64,000 nucleotides of DNA, taken from contig NC_049992.1 of NCBI RefSeq assembly GCF_000003815.2, forward strand, positions 9,649,538-9,713,537, in the 5' to 3' direction. The position numbers and the translations under genes were made by a program. Under the pieces are notes generated by a model, which saw only the letters and a program-made list of their open reading frames with translations, searched no databases and was not told where the DNA came from. The DNA is from Branchiostoma floridae. Its lineage: Eukaryota > Chordata > Leptocardii > Amphioxiformes > Branchiostomatidae. Shown here piece after piece: positions 26,278 to 63,936 of this stretch (the stretch's first letter is position 1; each line of letters starts with the position of its first letter).

Positions 26278-28475
26278 TCACGAATAGTAACAGTAGTGAA
26301 GCTTGTGGTTTCTGCTACCGCCTGTGTCGTGCGGATGTGCCCCATGGCGATCACTTTCATTAATGGTATCTTCATCGTCCCAGCGGAAGTATTCCTCCCT
26401 TACATTCATCCCGAGGACCTGCAAACAACATATCCTTGTTGTCCATTGCTACCAAATCGAGGGACAAATTGGGCATGCCCTTATTATAACATTACATTGT
26501 ATATATCAACCATATTGAAAACTTTTTTATGGATTTGTTACGATTAATTTGTGCATTTTCGAGCAATCTTTGAAATAAAATGGCAACATTAAAGATTGGC
26601 TGAACTGAGACATGACATGTGTAATAAAAACAAGAATGTAGAAATAATGCACCATGGGTAGAATCCAAGATGGCGTCTTACAAGACAGGTGAGATTTCAG
26701 CAACATTTCTGTCAGCCGAATACAAAAATAGAAGCCTAAACGTAGGTTACGCAATCCTCACCTTTTGGCACCCCTGCCTGAAGCGGAAGAGGTAAAACGG
26801 TTTGCGGCTGGGTAGCGGGATGCGGGTGTTGGCGCTACCATCGTTACGACAGCAGTACCAGATGAGCGTGTTGCGGTCGTACTTCCCGTCAGGCAGTGAG
26901 CCACTCCTGCTGTTCCTTTGGTTGAATGGATTGTCTTCGTCGTCCCAGTAAATTTCCCCAGTTTGGAAACCTGGAAAATACAGTATCAAATCTGCATACA
27001 TCTCTTCATCAATGACAGCAGCATTCTAAGGTCTAACGTTAACCTGAAACTTGTTGTCTTTGGGGTATACAAAATGAGAATGACCAAGTTGCCGCAACAA
27101 CTGCAAGTACTGCAGCTATATTTTACACAAATTTAGAAATTCAGATACTTCAGAGTTTAAGGATTCCTACGTTCCATTTTGTAACGACAGATCCATCGTT
27201 TCTATTTCGTTGTAAAACAAACATTATACCTACCACTTGGACATTCATTCTTCTTGAAGATACAGTAGCTACCACGTGGCCAGGTCCCGTGCCCTGTCCA
27301 ATAAGATGTCTGGATTGGGACGAAGAGATGTTAAGACGACTTTTTATTTCTATACACTAGACAAAATGTTTTGAATCTTTGTTAAACATTTGAATCTATG
27401 TAACGAAAAATATAACATGCATTGGCATAATACCGGTCATAAGCCTTATACCGGTCGATTAAAAATAGTGGAACTTAAAGAGATCTACACATGCAACAAT
27501 AGTTATTTCTGAGGTATGCACACTTCAGACATCTAGGTGTCCAATACATAATTTACAAAGCATCGATAACAATGCATTCGAAGACAACAAGGCCAAAAGT
27601 TTTCAGGTCATTTTCGGGGCAGGCGAGCTCGTGTAAACCTCGTGACCAACAACTCGTGTAAAAGTGTGAGGAACCGTTGCATTATCGCCCGGATCTACGG
27701 CTGAATGGGTCAAATTGAACGTACGCCGCCATTTTCCCGCCATTTTTCATGCTACGGCCAGCAGTAAAGTTTTACGTCATAGCGGTTGTGACGGACCAAA
27801 ATTAAATGAAAATTCTTGTCAGTATACGCCCATTTTCTCATGACTTTTTGTATGCTCATGCAGATTTTTGTTTTGTGCAACTACGTACACTAACAGGAAA
27901 GAAAGGAACAACAGAGGATGTATAAAAAAGGTACATAGCGGCAGTTAATTGTGCCGTGTTTCGTTCGACCGGTATAGTGCACCCCCTTCCAACCACACGC
28001 CCGTTCTCCGTGCAATTCCGCGGTGTGTTCCAATTACGATATTATGTTTTTAGCAGGACCAGAGAGACAAAATAATTTACACAGAAGAAGTGGCAAAGGT
28101 AAGCTGTAACAGCAACATGTAACTGGAGAAAATGATGCGTTGATCATTTGCCAAATTAGCATTGCTTGAGAAATTGCAGTAAACCGACCGGTATTATGCC
28201 AATGGATGTTAACGTCCAATATCTATCTATCTATATACAATACGTTCAGTGAATCTCTTGAGAAATGACTTCGTCCACGCTCACTTTCATGCAAAATTTC
28301 TGTATCATGTTGTCCCTCCAGAAGTCTCCATCAAAATGCAGTCCTGACGTCCAGTAGTTGTTGGCGTCGTCGTCCTCGGTGTCTTGGAAACGGGAGCCCG
28401 TGTGCCAGGTCACGCCTGCAGATTCCGGGCAGCCTGTGTTTGTCCTGGGTAAACCATACGTTCCTCTTGGCCATC
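26278..28475 (-). CDS. ApeC domain exons of gene 3
   Basis: Four exons (28285-28475, 27234-27309, 26762-26970, 26278-26418) encode the apextrin C-terminal domain. Landmarks are [86 protein letters not shown] and the end LHYCYYS. The paired W-D-D-E-D and Y-C motifs, and the conserved cysteines, match the ApeC family. Borders are identical in all three genes. The terminal residue is Ser here and Trp in genes 1 and 2. Confidence 0.9.

Positions 28476-63936: not shown

Follow-up and report, generated by a model that had tools for sequence, protein, structure and literature searches.

Two probable chimeric genes next to a polydom-type gene with an ApeC end in the lancelet Branchiostoma floridae

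Introduction

In a stretch of 64,000 nucleotides from the genome of the lancelet Branchiostoma floridae (contig NC_049992.1, here called C14, positions 9,649,538-9,713,537; hereafter "the window"), three adjacent genes lie on the minus strand, and each of them has a full-length ApeC domain at its end. We report here that gene 1 is of the polydom/SVEP1 type, and that genes 2 and 3 are probably promoter-capture chimeras, in which a lectin family found mostly on contig C16 would have supplied the 5' end and a polydom the GCC2-EGF-ApeC 3' end. This reading comes from comparison of the DNA and of predicted exons.

It is disputed whether novel domain combinations arise unusually often in lancelets: one genome paper claimed that they do, and a reply blamed errors of gene prediction (PMC4967905). 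In the present case, relatives of both donors of the two chimeric genes are identifiable in the DNA, including the non-coding flank, independently of any annotation pipeline. With gene 1, the locus also offers a matrix-type protein in which the gain or retention of an ApeC domain, from a family that binds bacterial walls, can be tested. The regulation of genes 2 and 3 should track that of the lectin family, not that of polydom.

Three genes with a common ApeC end

The exon chains were spliced by hand from open reading frames, splice-site scores and mutual homology, and the splicing is predicted; homologues were searched for in the genome of 513 Mb (431 contigs). Genes 1, 2 and 3 comprise 40, 9 and 14 exons, respectively, and contain no internal stop. 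The frame of the chain is open in all 63 exons, 42 of which are open in that frame only, and all 60 introns (39 of them in gene 1) have GT-AG ends. Most introns are in phase 1 (29 of 39 in gene 1, 6 of 8 in gene 2, and 11 of 13 in gene 3). The signal peptides are predictions judged by eye, and coordinates above 64,000 extend the numbering past the end of the window. An assembly gap of 100 N (43,962-44,061) does not cut a gene model, because it sits 0.9 kb upstream of the start codon of gene 2.

The first-pass annotation had described three same-strand genes that end in ApeC and share a four-exon ApeC cassette together with the EGF exon before it. A profile search with Pfam families bears this out in all three translated chains: the ApeC family (PF16977, length 208, cut-off 26.5 bits) matches gene 1 with 249.4 bits (E = 4.1e-74), gene 2 with 233.3 bits (E = 3.4e-69), and gene 3 with 237.5 bits (E = 1.7e-70), each time over positions 1-208 of 208. 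The domain is divided into four exons with matching boundaries in gene 1 (46,478-49,194; exons 49,194-49,004, 48,808-48,733, 48,306-48,098, and 46,618-46,478), gene 2 (38,370-40,206; exons 40,206-40,016, 39,816-39,741, 39,063-38,861, and 38,511-38,370), and gene 3 (26,278-28,475; exons 28,475-28,285, 27,309-27,234, 26,970-26,762, and 26,418-26,278). In the alignment, all three carry eight cysteines and three DXED motifs, as defined in PMC8361754. The preceding EGF exon, cEGF12, is identical at 39 of 40 residues in every pair among the three genes.

Genes 2 and 3 and their 5' ends

Gene 2 (38,370-43,091, minus strand) encodes 404 amino acids in the order signal peptide, linker, GCC2, EGF, EGF, and ApeC. 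Its GCC2-C exon (41,768-41,929; Pfam E = 1.9e-13) is followed by cEGF11 and cEGF12 (40,748-41,178; EGF_CA in two stretches), and no lectin-type module stands ahead of the ApeC domain. The order GCC2-EGF-EGF-ApeC had been read in this way before; the signal-peptide exon (43,091-42,983) is added here, and it is followed by a linker exon (42,375-42,464) that is common to the C16 lectin family.

Gene 3 (26,278-36,127, minus strand) encodes 780 amino acids: a signal peptide, a linker (35,443-35,547, shared with C16 loci), four GCC2 units, a C-type lectin domain, an exon first labelled CCS/WCG, a further GCC2 unit, one EGF repeat, and ApeC. The first-pass annotation had the modules right from the lectin exon onward but saw a single leading GCC2 unit; there are four, namely three tandem copies of GCC2-A followed by GCC2-B (33,128-35,241), which makes five in total with GCC2-C (30,206-30,367). 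Together they match the Pfam family Ephrin_rec_like in five stretches (E = 4.4e-57). The cEGF12 exon (29,202-29,324) scores 26.9 bits against EGF_CA, just below the cut-off of 27. Upstream of it lies a decayed cEGF11 exon (29,538-29,640) with insertions and deletions relative to gene 2; only three of the 17 AG acceptors tried keep phase 1 open, and they give just 7-19 residues. The position of this remnant is the one expected, which suggests that the ancestor had the order GCC2-C, cEGF11, cEGF12, ApeC.

Genes 2 and 3 have similar signal-peptide exons, which agree at 26 of 36 residues, and relatives of this exon in the genome number 16 on C16 and one on C19. These loci (C16:2.06-2.49, 15.09-15.22, and 17.1-17.7 Mb; C19:2.24 Mb) form a family sharing one signal-peptide exon. 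Two of the C16 loci were examined, as separate exons rather than spliced gene models: each carries the signal-peptide and linker exons together with a chitin-binding domain and a SUEL lectin domain, and one of them has an F5/8-type domain as well. The homology includes non-coding DNA. In gene 3, a block of 946 bp (35,829-36,774, minus strand), made up of about 650 bp of flank, the signal-peptide exon (36,127-36,019), and the start of intron 1, aligns end to end with C16:15,215,467-15,216,409 at 79% identity (E = 2.2e-234), and an additional matching block lies 1.73-1.96 kb upstream. In gene 2, blocks that match the C16 lectin genes extend to 1.28 kb ahead of the start codon. Among three control stretches compared in like manner, 36,800-37,800, which is situated between the two gene 3 blocks, gave no match, and the remaining two together gave one match of 92 bp. 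When the 5' exons of genes 2 and 3 were compared with the gene 1 region and the examined part of a second polydom-type gene (see below), only chance-level similarity was found (best E = 0.18, for the linker). The first-pass annotation had seen an array that varies its modules before a constant ApeC end; the modules do differ, but it missed that genes 2 and 3 probably owe their signal peptide and 5' flank to an unrelated lectin family.

Plain tandem duplication of one ancestor, with differing losses and no foreign 5' end, would explain why the polydom-type exons in genes 2 and 3 follow the order of gene 1 and why DNA similarity among the genes extends into introns. It is nevertheless quite improbable in view of the first two exons, which have many matches on C16, flank included, and none above chance level in the gene 1 region and the examined part of the second polydom-type gene.

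Gene 1 and the second polydom-type gene

Gene 1 (71,549-46,478, minus strand) encodes 2,073 amino acids, and its start codon at 71,549 (C14:9,721,086) lies 7,549 bases past the end of the window. The window holds 28 of the 40 exons, from HYR2 to the fourth ApeC exon (46,478-63,936); a further 12 exons, which code for the signal peptide and the VWA, EGF-like, Cys-rich, Sushi1-3, and HYR1 parts, lie upstream at 64,395-71,549. The earlier description of this gene as SVEP1-like holds, but the end given to it, 63,936, is simply where the second HYR exon begins, and the gene runs about 7.5 kb past the window end.

The VWA domain is clear (Pfam E = 1.8e-30), and the ephrin-receptor-like motif after it is borderline (Ephrin_rec_like, 20.0 bits against a cut-off of 23.1). 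The HYR2 exon (63,697-63,936) belongs to a two-stretch HYR match that includes HYR1 (E = 1.2e-25). Sushi4 (63,130-63,327) reaches 21.9 bits against a cut-off of 20.7 when its exon is scanned alone, and Pfam does not report it within a longer segment. A conserved exon without a Pfam family (62,581-62,727), 96% identical in the second polydom-type gene, separates Sushi4 from GCC2-A, -B, and -C (three exons, 59,727-60,786; Ephrin_rec_like, E = 3.6e-40, three stretches). There follow six EGF repeats in four exons (57,890-59,305; E = 2.3e-48, six stretches), a pentraxin domain in four exons (55,884-57,437; Pfam Pentaxin, E = 2.2e-28), EGF5 and cEGF6-9 in five exons (53,821-55,741; EGF_CA/cEGF), Sushi5 and Sushi6 in two exons (50,778-51,533; E = 3.4e-13, two stretches), and EGF10, cEGF11, and cEGF12 (49,682-50,471; Pfam matches) before the ApeC exons.

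In other words, the order VWA, Sushi, HYR, GCC2, EGF, pentraxin, Sushi, EGF is that of polydom, and the Sushi/HYR units, the EGF repeats, and the central pentraxin domain are all present. These features, together with the ephrin-receptor-like motif after VWA and the final EGF repeats, are shared with polydom/SVEP1 as described in PMC12549020. Unlike that protein, gene 1 has only two Sushi domains after the pentraxin domain, and it ends, after three EGF repeats, in ApeC, a domain that the part of PMC12549020 used here does not name. Because the long Sushi tail (28 domains in human) is lacking, we call gene 1 polydom-type and do not file it as SVEP1.

The intron between cEGF9 and Sushi5 contains a reverse-transcriptase open frame of 492 amino acids (51,771-53,246, minus strand; RVT_1, E = 2.6e-26), which is probably from a non-LTR (long terminal repeat) element. 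In the second polydom-type gene, the same intron carries a SUEL lectin exon.

This second gene came to light in a search with the pentraxin domain of gene 1, a close copy of which lies on the other strand at C14:9,774,997-9,778,390. Exon-by-exon matches extend over C14:9,763,274-9,784,036 (plus strand), within the examined DNA (C14:9,763,038-9,803,037, which covers the gene from its first matched exon onward), and include all 27 gene 1 exons from Sushi1a to Sushi6 at 69-98% identity; the first matched exon is 42 kb from the start codon of gene 1. Two C-type lectin exons, with EPN and WND motifs present, occupy the intron that separates pentraxin exons two and three; the SUEL exon mentioned above lies between cEGF9 and Sushi5. 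In the 19 kb past Sushi6 (from C14:9,784,036), no gene 1 exon, including EGF10-12 and ApeC, has a match at E <= 1e-3, and the genome-wide ApeC search found nothing there either. Between the two polydom-type genes, three EGF exons (C14:9,751,712-9,752,875, minus strand) are 57-62% identical to EGF10, cEGF11, and cEGF12 of gene 1. A more distant, third polydom-like locus (C12:17.387-17.403 Mb) has HYR, Sushi, conserved-exon, and pentraxin pieces that are 37-49% identical, and this locus is possibly the orthologue of vertebrate SVEP1.

The missing relatives past Sushi6 would fit the view that gene 1 is in fact two genes, a polydom ending after Sushi6 and a separate EGF-ApeC gene, fused by a model artefact. 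Lancelet chimeras in published annotations have proved to be such errors (PMC4967905). We nevertheless regard a split as unlikely, since the Sushi6-EGF10 intron is just 306 bases long, in phase 1, and bounded by GT-AG; Sushi6 of the second gene likewise ends in a donor-like GTACGT; and no signal-peptide exon of the kind seen in genes 2 and 3, the only kind searched for, occurs in the gene 1 region.

Proposed chimeric origin of genes 2 and 3

For genes 2 and 3 as chimeras, the following course of events is proposed. A lancelet gene of the polydom/SVEP1 type, represented by gene 1, would have carried an EGF-EGF-EGF-ApeC end that is not seen in the searched stretch of its close paralogue. Its GCC2 repeats, last EGF exons, and ApeC exons would then have been duplicated downstream on the same strand, a direction that we infer, and the duplicated scaffold would have been placed under the flank, signal-peptide exon, and linker exon of the C16 lectin family. 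In both genes, GCC2-C leads directly to cEGF11 (decayed in gene 3), whereas EGF, pentraxin, and Sushi exons stand between them in gene 1; this shared join suggests that there was probably one chimera, which was later duplicated. In gene 3, the first GCC2 exon would have been tripled, lectin and chitin-binding exons would have come to lie between GCC2-B and GCC2-C, and one EGF exon would have been lost. Since the modules are joined at phase-1 introns, the gain or loss of one would leave the reading frame intact.

A wider proposal is that the locus is a site at which new secreted recognition genes are made, with lectin-type modules continuing to enter the phase-1 introns of a polydom scaffold, as the C-type lectin and chitin-binding exons of gene 3 and the two C-type lectin exons and one SUEL exon of the second polydom-type gene would illustrate; we see the chances of this as evenly balanced. 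On that proposal, genes 2 and 3 would be young chimeras, with relatives of both donors still in the genome.

Lancelets are highly heterozygous, and there is an assembly gap between genes 1 and 2, so that one may ask whether uncollapsed haplotypes could explain the pair of genes 2 and 3, or the pair formed by gene 1 and the second polydom-type gene. This is very improbable. Synonymous divergence (dS) of ApeC among genes 1-3 is 0.18-0.31, which would be more than expected between alleles; the between-gene blocks longer than 300 bp are 72-85% identical in DNA; the domain sets differ; and the second polydom-type gene is inverted and has extra lectin exons.

Several observations weigh against the chimeric origin as proposed, or against parts of it. 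The splicing is a prediction, above all at the Sushi6-EGF10-ApeC join of gene 1, and it is to this last join that the warning about prediction errors in PMC4967905 applies; for genes 2 and 3 it is weaker, because they resemble the lectin family in non-coding DNA as well. That homology is itself broken upstream of gene 3, where nothing in 36,800-37,800 matches either of the two C16 loci, and copy number is the basis for the direction of transfer, from C16 to C14. The second polydom-type gene is as close to genes 2 and 3 in GCC2 as gene 1 is, so that either may have been the GCC2 donor, and a loss of ApeC there is as possible as a gain in gene 1. The ApeC tree does not resolve genes 1-3 among themselves, nor the order of duplication. 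Between genes 1 and 3, GCC2-C has a ratio of nonsynonymous to synonymous divergence (dN/dS) of 1.02 on 53 codons, without sign of constraint. Finally, gene 3 seems to have altered sites in its lectin and chitin-binding domains (see below).

The ApeC domain in the genome

The dN/dS values estimated by the NG86 method are 0.42-0.53 for ApeC among genes 1-3, 0.06-0.13 for cEGF12, and 0.03-0.10 for GCC2-A of genes 1 and 3. The ApeC values point to moderate constraint.

Genome-wide, there are 34 ApeC pieces, nine of them in the window, from the three genes. The four-piece layout was considered as a hallmark of the array and rejected, since four other loci also have the complete set of four, with boundaries at almost identical residues (C11:9.50, C5:22.09, and C14:19.24 Mb, and one on C10 whose fourth piece is 17.6 kb away), a comparison of piece boundaries rather than splice sites. 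An ApeC tree of 10 rows, three of them partial (C4:9.01, C4:31.16, C323, and C146 omitted), separates the loci at C14:6.37 and 6.40 Mb from genes 1-3 (100/98). Upstream of eight ApeC loci outside the array (C4:31.16, C323, and C146 left out), examined over about 20 kb at five and at most about 10 kb at three, no relatives of the GCC2 and EGF modules were found at E <= 1e-4; there is a Sushi-like piece at C14:19.24 Mb, and there are C-type lectin pieces at C14:6.37 and 6.40 Mb. A sequence search of the PDB gave no ApeC relative at E <= 1.

The lectin and chitin-binding modules of gene 3

The C-type lectin exon of gene 3 (32,260-32,649, minus strand) matches the Pfam family Lectin_C with 65.9 bits (E = 6.5e-18; cut-off 22.6). 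The sugar-binding motifs of C-type lectins are EPN or QPD, and WND. In their place gene 3 has EPA and WDE, within what Pfam still recognizes as a C-type lectin fold.

The CCS/WCG exon (31,226-31,399, minus strand) could have been taken for a new domain, given its weak match to Chitin_bind_1 (19.5 bits against a cut-off of 27.8). The PDB rules this out: the exon matches the amphioxus PGRP3 structure (4z8i) with E = 2.8e-14 over 54 aligned residues, and all eight cysteines of BbtPGRP3 are present. The BbtPGRP3 domain is a hevein-like chitin-binding domain, for which the residues S51, W53, W55, and H62 are named and W53A and W55A were tested together (PMC4610682). In the alignment, with the numbering of that paper, gene 3 keeps three of the four (S51, W55, and H62) and has alanine for W53; unlike BbtPGRP3, it fuses the domain to lectin and ApeC modules, not to an amidase.

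Both exons have many relatives. The hevein-like exon has at least 150 places in the genome, including gene 3 (the others 44-76% identical among the matches listed), and a stretch of 252 bp that takes in the gene 3 exon and its flanks shares 85% identity with one C16 locus; relatives of the lectin exon are up to 79% identical among the matches listed. When 58 of at least 150 lectin places were compared with 72 of at least 150 chitin-binding places, pairs within 4 kb, besides gene 3, had the lectin exon first in seven cases and the reverse order in five. The order seen in gene 3 is thus common, not fixed, and the two exons may have arrived together. All three of the hevein-like copies that were scored fall below the Chitin_bind_1 cut-off, and chitin-binding domains of the amphioxus type may be missed in annotation.

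Possible functions and known ApeC proteins

Amphioxus ApeC-containing proteins (ACPs) 1, 2, 3, and 5 bind peptidoglycan and are described as bacteria-induced; they agglutinate bacteria but do not kill them; ACP3 and ACP5 are expressed in the gut and hepatic caecum, and their expression rises on bacterial challenge (PMC8361754, PMC9585378). By analogy, the proteins of genes 1-3 would be secreted and their ApeC domains would bind bacterial peptidoglycan, with the EGF/GCC2 stalk as a spacer. A second glycan contact (microbe, mucus, or chitin) might come from the lectin and chitin-binding modules of gene 3, and gene 1 might hold ApeC within the extracellular matrix.

Like ACP1, 2, 3, and 5, the three genes have a C-terminal eight-cysteine ApeC domain and a predicted signal peptide (PMC8361754, PMC9585378), and like ACP1 and ACP2 they carry three DXED motifs. 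Unlike them, ACP3 and ACP5 are short (561 and 636 amino acids), ACP5 has a CUB domain, and EGF, GCC2, and Sushi are absent from the portion of text used (PMC8361754). A lancelet Fucolectin-CTL-CTL-CUB-APEC clade resembles them in joining ApeC to carbohydrate-recognition domains, with other modules that differ (PMC12373286); it may correspond to the loci at C14:6.37 and 6.40 Mb, which have C-type lectin pieces upstream. Complex multidomain ApeC proteins are known in lancelets (PMC12373286) and mollusks (PMC9585378), and 21 ACP models have been published for B. floridae (PMC8361754). Since ApeC proteins of many architectures are already in print, genes 1-3 may be among these models; the titles and abstract openings of the open-licence literature searched name no ApeC-ended polydom or two-donor origin, and we do not claim that these are absent from print. 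In each of two lancelet species, 13 ApeC genes are annotated, and 5 of them are present in some individuals and absent from others (PMC12373286).

On the other hand, the proteins may be matrix or developmental components, polydom-like or resembling sea-urchin apextrin of the apical matrix, rather than recognition proteins. The domain order of gene 1 is that of polydoms, which are matrix proteins (PMC12549020), the first apextrin was an embryonic matrix protein (PMC8361754), and the sugar-binding sites of gene 3 look altered. We consider this a minor though serious possibility, given that the lancelet ACPs tested so far in these papers bind peptidoglycan, with induction by bacteria in the four named above (PMC8361754, PMC9585378), and that genes 2 and 3 have a 5' end in common with a lectin family.

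The first-pass annotation had proposed an expanding secreted recognition family. Its mosaic build, predicted signal peptides, constant ApeC end, and two recognition-type folds (C-type lectin and hevein-like) are all found, but they do not show an expanding immune family: the array holds just three genes, of which the first is matrix-like and the second free of lectin modules, and the sites of gene 3 look altered. An immune role for the array keeps the conditional standing that it had there.

Flanking sequences

In positions 1-26,000 of the window, a check by eye of the open frames (up to 166 amino acids), made without a Pfam scan, gave no obvious gene. Upstream of gene 1 on the same strand, past the window end (79,006-86,003, minus strand), there are an Ig-like domain below cut-off, a trypsin domain (E = 1.3e-58), an EGF-like stretch recognized by eye, a Sushi domain, and a weak PAN match. 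Also past the window end, at 80,910-81,911, is a tandem repeat of 334 open codons with a unit like FQCDIPSAPRTGMP.

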